Source of the DNA: Methanomassiliicoccus luminyensis B10
GTDB taxonomy: Archaea > Thermoplasmatota > Thermoplasmata > Methanomassiliicoccales > Methanomassiliicoccaceae
Reading direction: 5' to 3'
Length of the DNA stretch: 64,000 nucleotides
NCBI RefSeq assembly: GCF_000308215.1
Contig: NZ_CAJE01000012.1
Coordinates: forward strand, 124,001-188,000
Shown: positions 23,745-28,101 of the stretch, one piece after another
Numbering within the stretch: position 1 is the first letter of the stretch
Layout of the letters: the number at the start of each line of letters is the position of its first letter
Notes under the pieces: generated by a model
What the model saw: only the letters and a program-made list of their open reading frames with translations
Databases searched by the model: none
Told to the model about the DNA's origin: nothing
Translations under genes and position numbers: made by a program

Positions 23745-23893
23745 CTTCCGCTCCCTTCCCCGTCAATGCGCGGACCCCTATATAGGGTGTGCTCCAAATG
23801 ATATGCGGAATTGACTAAGAACGGGCTCAGCCAGGAGAGCGCCGGGAGGTATTTTTTATTCTGATTCTCAAAATGCATTATTTATAGGTATGT

Positions 23894-23927
23894 GTAGCAT
23901 GCTCAACCACCTATTTTATATTCACAA
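23894..23927 (+). promoter_or_regulatory. shared promoter element, copy A (before the octapeptide-repeat gene)
   Basis: GTAGCATGCTCAA (23894-23906), five variable bases, then TATTTTATATTCACAA (23912-23927). The same arrangement with the same spacing occurs at 27017-27050 before the DUF835 gene. The first block holds the palindrome GCATGC; the second contains the TATA box. Transcription should start near 23940, about 20 nt before the coding start. Confidence 0.7.
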
Positions 23928-23963
23928 GACCAAACCGGTGCAACCCATATCAAATTGGTGAGG

Positions 23964-24215
23964 ATGATGAAGACAAGAACCCTGGCAATAATGGGAGTGG
24001 CGATATGCGTCGGCGCGCTCGGAGTTGCGATCGCCTTCGGCGCCCTGAGCGTGCCCCTGGTGGGATATACAATTCCCCTGATCGACCCGCACACAATTCC
24101 CCTGATCGACCCGCACACAATTCCCCTGATCGACCCGCACACAATTCCCCTGATCGACCCGCACACAATTCCCCTGATCGACCCGCACACAATTCCCCTG
24201 ATCGACCCGCATTAA
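23964..24215 (+). CDS. short membrane-anchored protein of six identical octapeptide repeats
   Basis: The product is about 83 residues. Residues 1-10 are basic, about 11-32 form a hydrophobic helix (AIMGVAICVGALGVAIAFGA) that is a signal anchor or signal peptide, then SVPLVGY leads into six tandem copies of TIPLIDPH up to the stop. GGTGAGG lies just before ATG 23964; ATG 23967 and upstream GTG/TTG codons are alternative starts. The repeated part should face the outside if the N-terminal helix follows the positive-inside rule. Asp and His recur every eight residues and could bind metal. I do not recognise the family. Its promoter element matches that of the DUF835 gene beyond the STAND regulator. 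Confidence 0.6.
   Translation: MMKTRTLAIMGVAICVGALGVAIAFGALSVPLVGYTIPLIDPHTIPLIDPHTIPLIDPHTIPLIDPHTIPLIDPHTIPLIDPH
24069..24212 (+). repeat. six tandem 24-bp repeats inside the octapeptide gene
   Basis: ACAATTCCCCTGATCGACCC plus GCAC repeats at 24069, 24093, 24117, 24141, 24165 and 24189. The copies are identical at the DNA level except for the last base of the final copy (CAT instead of CAC before the stop). Identity including third codon positions points to recent amplification by slippage or recombination, so the copy number may vary between strains. Confidence 0.9.
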
Positions 24216-24263
24216 TCAGGTAAACCAATTCACCTCCCAGCAATGGGAGGTTCCTACCCGTTT

Positions 24264-26960
24264 TTATGCACCGTTCTGCGCCAGCGCTTCCTCTATATCT
24301 TTCTTGATCTGATCCATGGGCTCGTTCTGAAAATACATCTGAGCCTCGGACAACATCGCGTAGGCCGCGGACCTCTCTCCATTTTTGGCGTATTCCTTGG
24401 AGACCCAGAACAGCCATCTCCCCAGGATAGAGGGCTTGTTCATTTTACGCAGCATATCTAGGGCCAGGTTAAATTCATCCTTGCCCCATTCCCATTCTTG
24501 CTTCTTTTCGTACAGGTAGCCCCGCATCAGGTGCATGTGGGCCACCAGCAATTTGATGTTCAGTTTCTCGAAGATCTTGGACGACGCGGTCAGCAGATCC
24601 TCTGCCGCTCCGAACTCCTCCAACTCGATGTGCGCGGCGGCGGCGTGGCGCATCGCATGCCCCTGAAGTTCGAGATTCCCAGAAGCCTTCCCAATATCGA
24701 TTGCTTTCTCGAGATAGTTGGCCCCTTCTCTGAAGTTACCAATGTCCAGCAGACTGTGACCTATTCCGACATACACCCTGGCGATGTTGTCGACATCGCC
24801 GGTCTTCTCCATGATCTCCAAAGCCTCTTTCTTGTACGTTATGGCCCGGTTGTGGTCCAGAAGGTCGGTGTGGACCCTCCCGATGCCGTACAGCGCCTTT
24901 CCCCGCCCCACATCGTCGCCGACCGTCTGGGCAAGCTCCCGGGACATCGAGAAGGCGCTCAGAGCCTCCTGGTTCCTTCCGCGGCTCTGGAACACCCCGC
25001 CCAAATCATAGTAGATGTCCACCAGGGTGTGAGTGTCCTGAATGGCCTGCGCGATCCCCAGACTCTTCACCAAGTATGTCTCGGCCTCGTCGAACAGGGA
25101 CCTGCGCAGGTAGATGCCACCTATCCGGCGGTTTATCTCCGCGAGCAGCCTTTTATCCTTCTCAGGGTCCGCCAGCGTTCCTGCCTCATCGAACCTGACG
25201 ACCGCCTGGTCCCATTCCCCCTTGACCTCGTAGATGTCGCCCTCCAACAGGAGTATCTCCATTTTCTCGCTATTGTCGATGTGTTCGCACTGCTCTCTCA
25301 GCTGGGCGAGCAGCGGGCCGAACGGAAGGCCATAGCCCTTGGCGATGATATCCCTTCCATAGCTGGCCGCGATCTTGGTAGCGGTGGAGTATTCCTTGGC
25401 CATCAGGCAGTGGTACATCGCCTCCACGTGCGACGGCGCGGACCGGTCCTGCAGATAGTACCTTGACGCCGCTTTATGATAGGCCATCCGGGACCTCGGG
25501 GCCAGTCGCGAATAGAAGAAGTCCCTCAACAGGTCGTGCATGCCGATCATGCGGCCGGTGGACTCGTGCATCAGGGACTTGTTGAGCAGCTGGTCGATGG
25601 TGTCATAGTCCACCATGTAGTCTTTGTACTCCAGCTCCTTCTGGGCGAACCCCATCTCCTTGGCGATCCCCTCCTCCATGCTGAAGAACGCATCGATGAG
25701 GACGGGGTACCTGAATATGGAGGCGATTTCCAGGATCCTCCTCTCGGTGGGGTCGAGCTTGGCGTACACCTCCTGTTCGATGAACATGCGGACGTTCTTG
25801 CCGAGCGCGCTCTTGGGGCTGTCGATAAGCTCCAGGAAGAGAGGGTGGCCACGGGTGGCGGTGTATATGGCCATGAGCTCCGATTCCGGGAGCTCCCGGT
25901 TCCGGATCAGGCGGAAGCTGCTGTCCATGTCCAGGCCGTCCAGCATCATCTCCACGACCTCCCCCTTGAACACCACGCTGCGCGAGTAGAACGACGGTAT
26001 CTCGCGGCTGGTGAATATCATGGATACGTGGGGAAGCGATTCCAGCACCCCCACCATGGCGGCCAGGAAGTCATGCACGGTCTGGTCGGCCTTCTGCACA
26101 TCGTCCAGTATGAACACCGCGGGCAGGTCCTTCAGCTCGGTCTCCAGGATTGACGACACCTCTCCCACGCTGGGCGTCTCGGTCCTCGACAGGTACCTCT
26201 CCAGCCCTTTCCTCCCCATCTGGGAGAGGAACTCCGCGATGGGCGAGAGGAGGATCTTCAGGTTAACCCACTCGTGGACCCGGTACCAGAACACGTTGTG
26301 GCGTTCCCTCACGTCCTGCACGAACTTCGCCAGCAGGGTGGTCTTCCCGATGCCGGGGATCCCATACACCACCATTATCCGGGCGGTCTCGGAGGTAATG
26401 AAGTCGTTGAGCTTCTTCAGTTCTTCCTGCCGGCCGAAGAACGTCCTCACCGACGGCTTCCGATCGGTGTAGTCCACATAGCGCCTCTCCTCCCTCACCT
26501 TGCCGTGGTGGAAGGAGGAGCAGTCGAACCTCCCCCTGGTCACGCCGAGGGCTATCTCCAGGAAGGTGTAGCGCTTCGGAAGGTATTTGCTGAGCTTTCC
26601 CACCTCATCGGTGATCTCCTTCCCGTCGAAATCGACGATGACCACCTTGGTGCTCTCGATCTCGGCCTTAAAGGCCAGTCCTTCCTGGAACCCCTTCTGG
26701 GTCAGGAAGTACACCTTCTTGACGCTGGCGAAGCCCTTCACATGTTTGGTGTGCACCTCCACGATCCCCTCGTCGGCGAGGACGTTCACCGCCTTTGACA
26801 CGTTGTTGCGTCCGACGTCGACCGCGTCCGCTATGCCTTCCTGCGTGATGGCCATGGGCGCATCGGAGTCTTGCAGGAATTTCTGGTATGATAAGATATG
26901 AAGGACGATCCTCTCCCTTGCCGTCAGCAGGGACTTCTTGGACGCGCGGTTCAATGCCAA
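24264..26960 (-). CDS. STAND-type regulator: winged HTH, ATPase and TPR repeats
   Basis: The 898-residue protein starts at a TTG on 26958-26960. Residues 15-95 form a winged helix-turn-helix (TQEGIADAVDVGRNNVSKAV). FFGRQEEL near 174 precedes an NB-ARC/NACHT-like ATPase: Walker A GIPGIGKTT at 200-208, Walker B AVFILDDVQ at 281-289, sensor-like FTSREIP near 320. From about residue 560 to the end there are tandem TPR units (LLAEINRRIGGIYLRRSLFD, VDIYYDLGGVFQSRGRNQEA). This is the architecture of MalT/AfsR-like signal-gated transcription regulators. Its signal is unknown. It lies between two genes that carry the same promoter element, one of which it shares as divergent promoter region, so those genes are likely targets. 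Confidence 0.88.
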   Translation of the reverse strand: MALNRASKKSLLTARERIVLHILSYQKFLQDSDAPMAITQEGIADAVDVGRNNVSKAVNVLADEGIVEVHTKHVKGFASVKKVYFLTQKGFQEGLAFKAEIESTKVVIVDFDGKEITDEVGKLSKYLPKRYTFLEIALGVTRGRFDCSSFHHGKVREERRYVDYTDRKPSVRTFFGRQEELKKLNDFITSETARIMVVYGIPGIGKTTLLAKFVQDVRERHNVFWYRVHEWVNLKILLSPIAEFLSQMGRKGLERYLSRTETPSVGEVSSILETELKDLPAVFILDDVQKADQTVHDFLAAMVGVLESLPHVSMIFTSREIPSFYSRSVVFKGEVVEMMLDGLDMDSSFRLIRNRELPESELMAIYTATRGHPLFLELIDSPKSALGKNVRMFIEQEVYAKLDPTERRILEIASIFRYPVLIDAFFSMEEGIAKEMGFAQKELEYKDYMVDYDTIDQLLNKSLMHESTGRMIGMHDLLRDFFYSRLAPRSRMAYHKAASRYYLQDRSAPSHVEAMYHCLMAKEYSTATKIAASYGRDIIAKGYGLPFGPLLAQLREQCEHIDNSEKMEILLLEGDIYEVKGEWDQAVVRFDEAGTLADPEKDKRLLAEINRRIGGIYLRRSLFDEAETYLVKSLGIAQAIQDTHTLVDIYYDLGGVFQSRGRNQEALSAFSMSRELAQTVGDDVGRGKALYGIGRVHTDLLDHNRAITYKKEALEIMEKTGDVDNIARVYVGIGHSLLDIGNFREGANYLEKAIDIGKASGNLELQGHAMRHAAAAHIELEEFGAAEDLLTASSKIFEKLNIKLLVAHMHLMRGYLYEKKQEWEWGKDEFNLALDMLRKMNKPSILGRWLFWVSKEYAKNGERSAAYAMLSEAQMYFQNEPMDQIKKDIEEALAQNGA

Positions 26961-27016
26961 TGGATGCCTGTCTGTGGAAAAAAAGGTTGCGAGGGTACTT
27001 GCGAATTAACGAAAAA

Positions 27017-27050
27017 GTAGCATGCTCAAATCGGTATTATATAATCACAA
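27017..27050 (+). promoter_or_regulatory. shared promoter element, copy B (between the STAND regulator and the DUF835 gene)
   Basis: GTAGCATGCTCAA (27017-27029), five variable bases, then TATTATATAATCACAA (27035-27050). The first block is identical to copy A at 23894 and the second matches at 14 of 16 positions. It lies in the 126-bp divergent region of the STAND gene and the DUF835 gene; a regulator here could control both directions. The TATA core (ATTATATAAT) is almost symmetric and might work both ways. Confidence 0.7.
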
Positions 27051-27086: not shown

Positions 27087-27632
27087 TTGAAGGAAGAGAC
27101 CAGAATATCACTGCTAATAGAAGGCTACCCGCGCTATGGATACCAGACATACTCTCGGATCGTTGGCTCTGCCAGCAACAGCCTGTGCATCAGTCGGCTG
27201 CACCCGGAATACGTGGCCCATAAGTTCGGCCTGGAGAGGTCTAAGCACTACTGGCTTAGCGGACAGAAGGGACAAGACGTGATCTCCCCGAGATCGATGC
27301 ACCATCTGGTGAAGGCGCTGCGCATCGATCTCCGCGGCAGGGGCGGCGGGGTGGCGTTCATGGACGGGCTGGAATACCTGCTCCTGTTCAATGACACCGC
27401 CAGGGTCATGGAGGGGCTGGAGGAGATCGACGCGCTGCTCCGGCAGGCCAACGTGGACCTGATCATCGCGGTAGACCCGCTGACATTAGAACAGAACGAT
27501 CTGGACCGCCTGTACGAAGCGTTCCCGAGGCACTCGGTGAGGTCGATCCTGGAAAAGTACTCTATCCTAGGATCTCAGCAAATCTCTGAAGCCGTGCCAG
27601 GTAGCGAGGCTCAAGGGATCGCGGGTCTATAG
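27087..27632 (+). CDS. DUF835 domain protein 1
   Basis: The 181-residue protein starts at TTG 27087 with GGAGGGG 6 nt upstream. It is a DUF835 domain: a P-loop-free RecA/KaiC-like fold with LCISRLHPEYVAHKFG, HYWLSGQKGQDVISP, GGGVAFMDGLEYLLLFND and DLIIAVDPLTLE. The GLEYL motif is the family mark. DUF835 proteins are abundant in Thermoplasmatota and often attach to sensor domains; stand-alone function is unknown. Its last 71 nt overlap the end of the convergent DUF835 gene. Confidence 0.83.
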   Translation: MKEETRISLLIEGYPRYGYQTYSRIVGSASNSLCISRLHPEYVAHKFGLERSKHYWLSGQKGQDVISPRSMHHLVKALRIDLRGRGGGVAFMDGLEYLLLFNDTARVMEGLEEIDALLRQANVDLIIAVDPLTLEQNDLDRLYEAFPRHSVRSILEKYSILGSQQISEAVPGSEAQGIAGL

Positions 27633-28101
27633 GCACAATAAGGATGGCCTGCGAGGCCATCACCACATCGTTCACCTGCTCGATGAACGCCTGGACTCTG
27701 GAGAACTCGTTGAAGGCGCAGAGATATTCGATGCCATCTATCAGTACCACGCCGTGCTTTTTCCCCATGAGGAACGAGCTCACTCTCTGAGCGATGTGGC
27801 CAAGCTGATCGGGCGGTACGTTATTGGGTCCGTTCCGCTCGCTCAGCCACAATGCCTCTACGCGTTTTCCGGGCCACCGGCCCTGCATTAGGTCGGGGTG
27901 CATTCGGGTCACGCACATCACCTTGGACCCGGAATAGAGGAAGTCCTGCACGATCCGGCAGGCCTTGTCCATCTTCTTCTCGTTGATGAAATAGGTCCTT
28001 CCGTAATCGAACTCTATGGGACTGATGCCCATGGAGATGCTCAGCGGCTCGAGCTTTTGTTCCTCATCCTTTATCGGCCCAGGTACGAACAGCGCGGACA
28101 C
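27562..28101 (-). CDS. DUF835 domain protein 2
   Basis: The 179-residue product starts at a GTG on 28099-28101. It shares the DUF835 motifs with its convergent neighbour: VMCVTRMHPDLMQGRW, ALWLSERNGPNNVPP, GVVLIDGIEYLCAFN and AILIVPIDPRSLEPRYL. A TATA-like ATATTTAT on the minus strand near 28147-28158 would start transcription about 20 nt before the GTG. The two genes end inside each other's coding sequence (27562-27632), so their transcripts are mutually antisense there. Confidence 0.82.
   Translation of the reverse strand: MSALFVPGPIKDEEQKLEPLSISMGISPIEFDYGRTYFINEKKMDKACRIVQDFLYSGSKVMCVTRMHPDLMQGRWPGKRVEALWLSERNGPNNVPPDQLGHIAQRVSSFLMGKKHGVVLIDGIEYLCAFNEFSRVQAFIEQVNDVVMASQAILIVPIDPRSLEPRYLARLQRFAEILG

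Follow-up and report, generated by a model that had tools for sequence, protein, structure and literature searches.

What does a promoter element control when it occurs twice, on either side of a gene for a STAND-type regulator? The locus lies in a 64,000-nucleotide stretch of the Methanomassiliicoccus luminyensis B10 genome (NCBI RefSeq assembly GCF_000308215.1, contig NZ_CAJE01000012.1, positions 124,001 to 188,000, forward strand), referred to here as the window. An earlier note on this DNA described two 34-bp copies of the element, one before a gene of octapeptide repeats and one before a DUF835 gene, and proposed a dedicated regulon tied to the STAND gene between them. Comparison with related genomes gives good support to such a regulon, as the element follows the STAND gene in its distribution. 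The locus as a whole is probably an archaeal peptide-signaling unit: a secreted octapeptide would be sensed by a helix-turn-helix (HTH)-STAND-tetratricopeptide repeat (TPR) receptor, and this receptor would control the peptide gene, the region in which it is itself encoded and an RNA.

The operator and its association with the STAND gene

The two copies of the element and an associated AT-rich box are located as follows.

23894-23927, + strand: element 1, composed of AGCATGCT (23896-23903), CAA, five bases, the TATA box TATTTTATA (23912-23920) and TCACAA; the precursor-gene promoter, at the same place in 32 genomes.
27017-27050, + strand: element 2, composed of AGCATGCT (27019-27026), CAA, five bases, the TATA box TATTATATA (27035-27043) and TCACAA; between the divergent STAND and DUF835 genes, conserved in 30 genomes.
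23878-23886, - strand: AT-rich box TTATTTATA, which mirrors the TATA box across the palindrome; column conservation TATttAAa.

Both copies are exact, with the orientation and spacing first described, and 100 dinucleotide shuffles give a chance expectation of 0.00. The uniqueness reported for the window extends to the entire 2.62-Mb genome, which contains no further match to the 34-bp element at ≤3 mismatches (a reversed control pattern gave 0 matches); a scatter of copies at unrelated promoters, which would have contradicted the earlier proposal, is not seen. The GTAGCATGCTCAA half alone has one extra genomic occurrence, on contig C20, likewise 5′ of a TATA-like box.

Exact as it is here, the 34-bp element is not the conserved unit. 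Among cross-genome sites collected with ≤2 mismatches to AGCATGCTCAA, the invariant core is only the 8-bp palindrome AGCATGCT, exact in 32/32 precursor-promoter sites and 30/30 STAND/DUF835 intergenic sites; the CAA that follows is less constant (30/32 and 27/30, respectively). At these sites the palindrome lies upstream of a TATA-like box, with their centers ~17 bp apart. The TATTnTATAnTCACAA half comprises the TATA box and sequence 3′ of it, whose conservation is largely confined to the precursor promoter. Archaeal activators usually sit just upstream of the transcription factor B recognition element (BRE)/TATA region, and we read AGCATGCT as an activation site because it occupies this position. 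The mirrored AT box is found ~17 bp to the left of the palindrome center at the precursor sites and at the RNA sites described below, and is absent at the STAND/DUF835 sites; it may be a second promoter directed toward the HAD gene, in which case the precursor and RNA promoters may be bidirectional. No STAND-side TATA box was seen at the mirrored spacing from element 2. The STAND gene may nevertheless be autoregulated, given the location of element 2 between STAND and DUF835.

Two variants of the element deserve mention. In G134, the two sites (C13; L138:4728 and 7831) have changed in concert and share the variant AGCATGCTCCA. In G005 (C14:313; L124:313), a one-mismatch element lies 5′ of an open reading frame (ORF) resembling an archaellin start, and may be a chance occurrence.

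The order Methanomassiliicoccales was sampled with 147 genomes (labeled G000 etc., with genera as g and families as f). The 34-bp pattern matched 15 of them and a looser core pattern 35, with zero matches for the controls in both cases. A protein search located the STAND gene in 32 genomes, all within the 35 that bear the element. The element is thus present in 32/32 STAND-positive and 3/115 STAND-negative genomes (Fisher p = 3e-29, uncorrected for shared ancestry), as expected of the dedicated regulon that had been proposed. The three exceptions are incomplete assemblies: G131 (64% complete), G146 (83%) and G008 (90%). In the latter two the precursor site is near a contig end, and the missing STAND gene may therefore reflect an assembly gap.

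Both copies are retained in position at homologous loci. Where assembled, two same-strand sites ~3 kb apart flank STAND, one before the repeat gene and the other between STAND and DUF835, within the conserved gene order HAD, precursor, STAND, DUF835, DUF835, TrpB. Empty sites are found in five STAND-less genomes (G010, G013, G014, G015 and G132), in which the Lrp/HAD and TrpB flanks are close together and the precursor, STAND and first DUF835 genes are gone; G010 retains a broken copy of the second DUF835 gene. The same five genomes are also devoid of the RNA block at the kinase gene. Several independent losses of the cassette are likely, because these genomes represent three genera, two of which (g2 and g28) also hold element-bearing genomes.

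The octapeptide precursor and the candidate receptor

The gene that follows element 1 was first described as an octapeptide-repeat gene. The repeats are indeed present, but a multicopy precursor of a species-specific octapeptide is a better description of the product than an ordinary repeat protein.

23964-24215, + strand: peptide-precursor gene from the ORF list, 83 amino acids, with a Lys/Arg start, a hydrophobic segment, repeats and a stop right after the last His; homologs at the same place across the order.
24069-24212, + strand: six tandem copies of TIPLIDPH, the candidate mature peptide; in related genomes the copies encode an identical peptide from synonymously differing DNA.

In some 30 genomes, the ORF downstream of element 1 begins with a segment that contains Lys/Arg, followed by a hydrophobic stretch and 1-12 octapeptide copies resembling (hydrophobic)IPxxDPH. 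The relatives encode IIPGIDPH, IIPGLEPH, TIPMLDPH, IIPGTDPH, SIPFLDPH, AIPFIDPH, YIPMSDPH, YIPVNDPH, VIPGNSPH, GIPGNDPH and NIPGIDPI, and more distant octapeptides in other genomes are GLPGMTPH and PLPGVGPV. The precursors of G011, G012, G139, G146 and G129 are partly hidden by masked bases or contig ends. Variable spacers separate the copies in G136 and in families f2 and f3 while the octapeptide is unchanged, and the precursor ORF usually ends directly after the last copy.

In most genomes tested, the protein-identical copies differ in DNA, synonymously only; this restriction is built into the test, because only exact matches to the peptide were collected. The eight copies of G019 comprise eight DNA versions of one peptide, with 4.8 differences per pair of 24 nucleotides, and every copy is likewise DNA-distinct in G017, G134, G143, G144, G141, G001 and others. 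Thus, the gene has the predicted anatomy of a multicopy pheromone precursor, with a leader, assessed by hydrophobicity only, and identical peptide copies that appear to be under selection. Between the convergent precursor and STAND genes, an inverted repeat (ACCTCCCA...TGGGAGGT) with a T-run after it occupies 24233-24262 and may be a shared terminator.

The candidate receptor is encoded on the opposite strand.

24264-26954, - strand: HTH-STAND-TPR gene (candidate receptor and transcription factor), 896 amino acids from the conserved start or 898 from the TTG at 26960; Pfam TPR_12, AAA_16, NB-ARC and HTH_Crp_2.
26670-26954, - strand: winged-HTH part, residues 1-95, with invariant GRNN at residues 48-51; from a 26-homolog alignment and the secondary structure of the model.

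An AlphaFold model built from 26 sequences (mean predicted local distance difference test score 80.8, predicted template modeling score 0.67) features a winged HTH, an NTPase and a long TPR superhelix. Foldseek identifies PH0952 (6mfv) as the best PDB match, with E = 6e-22, and the matches to the TPR part include Rap phi3T with its pheromone (8rtc) and RapF. The AAA_16 and NB-ARC hits, together with the PH0952 match, indicate that the protein has the P-loop NTPase core of a STAND transcription factor. GRNN in the HTH is invariant across the 26 homologs, and the GIPGIGKT P-loop region is conserved in the same set. The TPR is the most variable domain (mean identity 41.8%, vs. 57.7% for the HTH and ~60% for the NTPase and middle parts); invariant GRNN and a variable TPR fit a fixed DNA site and a changing ligand. 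From the winged HTH and the co-occurrence with the site, we infer that STAND is the DNA-binding protein at AGCATGCT. The peptide is its presumed ligand.

The remaining genes of the cassette are two members of the DUF835 family, which is annotated as an inactivated KaiC-like domain (PMC5847659).

27087-27632, + strand: DUF835 gene, putatively driven by element 2 (PF05763, E = 1.7e-17); conserved beside STAND in the order.
27562-28101, - strand: second DUF835 gene, convergent with and overlapping the first (PF05763, E = 1.8e-28); syntenic, and a possible member of the regulon.

The convergent DUF835 genes overlap by 71 bases (27562-27632) in M. luminyensis. A DUF835 gene also adjoins STAND in two loci outside the order. 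In G009 and G011 (L032 and L033), a P-type ATPase motif, AVDESMLTGESVPVD, is found near the cassette beside a gene for an Lrp-type regulator with a TRASH domain, possibly a metal-homeostasis neighborhood.

The RNA-like block and STAND loci outside the order

The genes beside STAND are not the only ones to carry the operator. Both locus promoters are conserved, as the proposal of a dedicated regulon implied, but the regulon also reaches a remote RNA gene. The third GTAGCATGCTCAA site, present also in the M. luminyensis genome, and its counterparts precede a short block that has the core GGRGAAGGTCCRYGGGG, a GC-rich hairpin and, in most cases, a T-run; an adenylate-kinase-like gene comes next. 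The promoter site is present, and it would drive a short, conserved, terminated RNA. The part 3′ of the core has a more stable predicted fold than shuffled sequences (median z = -3.8; 25/32 below -2). The hairpins share position and not sequence, and align poorly across genomes; an Rfam search of the third-site loci gave no match. A coding transcript, suggested by a 22-codon ORF here, was set aside, as the core has single-base insertions between genomes and no common start codon (by eye).

The kinase gene is near-universal (131/147 genomes), and operator and RNA lie upstream of it in 28/30 STAND-positive vs. 4/23 STAND-negative genomes examined. The four STAND-negative genomes (G021, G146, G008 and G131) are 64-90% complete. 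G008 was counted by a site seen in the sequence, AGCATGCTACG, which the automatic AGCATGCTCAA scan missed; the same applies to G004 (AGCATGCTATC). G133, which is 99% complete and has no orthologous STAND, contains an RNA-like remnant with the palindrome altered to AGTATGCT.

The block might instead be a cis-acting 5′ leader of the kinase gene, a reading that concerns this part alone and is compatible with the rest. Its constant position just 5′ of the kinase gene, on the same strand, is what a leader would show. The GC-rich hairpin and T-run, however, separate the block from the kinase gene in most genomes, the segment 3′ of the core has the folding propensity noted above, and a related core occurs by itself at another place in the genome. 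We therefore regard a leader as doubtful, with a fair claim to attention nonetheless.

That other core belongs to a second, unlinked RNA-like locus (G000, C13:212983; L216:1440-1560), where an exact core, GGAGAAGGTCCACGGGG, is embedded in a longer conserved block (GAGGAGYCCCCGAAGA...GGTGGGGAAGTTGGAGAAGGTCCACGGGGACTCCCC). It occurs in 19 genomes of families f1-f3, STAND-less ones included, has no AGCATGCT upstream and matches no Rfam family, with only a sub-threshold CopA match. The third-site RNA may be a STAND-controlled relative or mimic of this locus. A core-only pattern for further RNA copies was noisy, matching 109/147 genomes, many with control matches too. We also note that in G130 (C27:119087; L119:4088) an exact AGCATGCTCAA with TATA box lies 5′ of an apparent response-regulator receiver gene; this genome is STAND-positive and has no RNA at the kinase gene.

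STAND relatives are found in 117/400 genomes of the class, order members included, and 40 outside-order or paralogous loci were inspected. About half feature a candidate peptide gene convergent at the STAND 3′ end. Clear leader-plus-repeat peptides outside the order are DGPHPSEPGSW, GPHPADNYAW, DDPPLDYDYA, DGPHPTDPSNW, TGPKPPLDGWDW and GPHPPGDTPW, with less clear cases in G198 and G156; the adjacent STAND proteins have ~25-35% identity. A mechanical scan for leader-plus-repeat genes found 27 in 51 STAND loci, all at the STAND 3′ end, and none in 97 control loci, which are shorter (354 vs. 576 kb), making the comparison one of density as well as of place. Six genomes of family f27 have a 9-codon ORF, M(D/A)GPPK(D/E)P(N/S/H), 30 bases from the STAND stop codon, and weaker tiny ORFs are seen in G186, G207 and G244. 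At the precursor position, G179 has a 44-amino-acid hydrophobic ORF, and G152, G178 and G159 have secreted proteins with no repeats. By eye, the latter three (L246, L251 and L253) resemble thrombospondin type 3 or dockerin-like calcium motifs and have a Pro-rich tail. One palindrome is found on both sides of STAND in several of these genomes: ACACATGTGT in G152, AACATGTT in G207 and AGCATGCT in G179 and G198.

Proposed circuit, alternatives and known systems

A circuit can be proposed as follows. The precursor gene (23964-24215) would yield a protein, membrane-inserted or secreted, with a row of identical octapeptides as its outer part, from which proteolysis would release the peptides. At sufficient concentration, the peptide would enter the cytosol, e.g. 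through an Opp-type importer, and bind the STAND TPR superhelix. The NTPase would then adopt its ATP form and multimerize like MalT-type STAND regulators, and the N-terminal winged HTHs would bind AGCATGCT just upstream of the TATA boxes, most likely activating transcription. Predicted outputs are more precursor (autoinduction), the DUF835 protein, possibly STAND, and the remote short terminated RNA; the promoter sites are observed, and their activity is what the model predicts.

The same regulon could operate with no peptide signaling, if STAND sensed another ligand and the repeat protein were one of the outputs, for instance a protein of the cell surface, an adhesion protein or one that binds metal through Asp-Pro-His. 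The co-occurrence, the third site and the empty sites fit this equally well, Asp/His-rich repeats could bind metal, and the Lrp-type regulator with a TRASH domain is nearby. Against it stand the genomes with only 1-2 copies, the constancy of the octapeptide despite variable spacers, the usual end of the ORF exactly after the last copy and the repeats of G125 and G134, which have no His. In addition, unrelated short repeated peptides occupy the same place beside STAND outside the order, which a conserved structural role does not predict; we consider such a regulon without peptide signaling unlikely, if still credible. A different regulator could bind the operator, e.g. the neighboring Lrp/AsnC-type TRASH protein, with STAND linked by position only. 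The Lrp gene is syntenic in many genomes and the palindrome would suit a dimeric HTH protein, but the distribution does not fit: no Lrp homolog is found at E ≤ 1e-25 in any g30 genome, though g30 keeps STAND and the element, and Lrp is present in the five genomes with empty sites. STAND is the only DNA-binding protein found here whose distribution matches the element, and another binder is very improbable. Finally, the octapeptide array might be a 24-bp DNA minisatellite with no selected peptide product, as the variation of copy number between species and the near-identity of the copies here would allow. The many genomes in which every copy is DNA-distinct and the peptide is the same, and the spaced copies that keep the peptide, contradict this reading, to which we attach almost no weight.

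Several observations weigh against the peptide-signaling unit itself. About half of the 40 outside-order or paralogous loci have no recognizable precursor. The partial correlation of peptide with TPR (0.18) is lower than that with HTH (0.34), and phylogeny dominates. The six copies of M. luminyensis represent two nearly identical DNA versions; in G135 the copies are nearly identical in DNA and the frame is lost after three, and in G002, as also in G005, they are imperfect. G130 and G134 carry STAND with no RNA at the kinase gene. The genome encodes one protein of the SBP_bac_5 family, which includes peptide importers, and a single such protein is no proof of peptide import. The binder may also be another regulator of the same distribution as STAND. 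On balance we still judge the signaling unit to be the probable reading, and lean somewhat more cautiously to a broader one: that Archaea have their own peptide-pheromone communication, built on a STAND ATPase transcription factor and a neighboring multicopy or tiny peptide gene, present across many of the class's lineages, with peptides that differ by species (IPxxDPH, GPHPxxPxxW, DDPPLDYDYA and the leaderless MxGPPKxPx) and, in Methanomassiliicoccales, a dedicated small RNA.

If true, this would be the first archaeal peptide-pheromone family. It would provide sequence-defined, synthesizable signals (TIPLIDPH here) with a candidate receptor, a DNA site and three outputs, and would make archaeal cell-to-cell signaling directly testable in methanogens, gut species among them. 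For other archaeal STAND-TPR regulators, PH0952 among them, it would suggest that the ligand may be a peptide, and the shared operator with a neighboring peptide gene would serve as a search rule for further pairs. Among the open-access papers searched, work on archaeal quorum sensing concerns acyl-homoserine lactones, LuxR solos and autoinducer-2, and we found no peptide pheromone-receptor pair in Archaea there.

To our knowledge, peptide-based cell-to-cell signaling of this type is known only in bacteria. RRNPPA receptors often control the precursor gene, and aimX of the arbitrium system acts as an RNA. Control of aimX by AimR has been described (PMC9232636). Published accounts of RRNPP systems (PMC10075063, PMC9765709, PMC12700828) deal solely with Bacillota and the mobile elements of these bacteria. 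Like the RRNPPA systems of Bacillota and phages (Rap, NprR, PlcR, Rgg/ComR, AimR), the present locus has a short propeptide gene beside a predicted cytosolic TPR receptor. The TPR assignment, from Pfam, the model superhelix and Foldseek, includes fold matches to Rap phi3T and RapF, and peptide binding is predicted. Of export, processing and reimport, a hydrophobic N-terminus and the one SBP_bac_5 protein are seen. The host, in contrast, is archaeal, each precursor holds several identical copies, and the receptor combines a winged HTH and a STAND NTPase whose P-loop residues are invariant, whereas RRNPPA proteins have no STAND NTPase and their DNA-binding members have an Xre-type N-terminal HTH. 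Because the receptor architecture differs, the locus is not a member of RRNPPA. The precursor also resembles that of yeast alpha-factor, in which a secretion leader precedes several copies of one pheromone; that system is eukaryotic, is processed by Kex2 and uses a membrane receptor, and the archaeal precursors have no Lys-Arg spacers.

MalT senses maltotriose, and we know of no paired peptide gene for MalT/AfsR-type STAND factors. These share with the present protein an NTPase switch, a TPR sensor and a DNA-binding domain (PMC10427625, PMC10936776), but the HTH is C-terminal in MalT and N-terminal here. PH0952 of Pyrococcus horikoshii (6mfv) is closer, as an archaeal STAND protein with a TPR sensor and a predicted N-terminal DNA-binding domain; it is described as a predicted transcription factor, with no mention of a peptide or pheromone (PMC6468293). 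By analogy, the anatomy of the locus would be that of an autoinducing peptide circuit, which resembles RRNPPA in its sensing and MalT-type STAND proteins in its switching.

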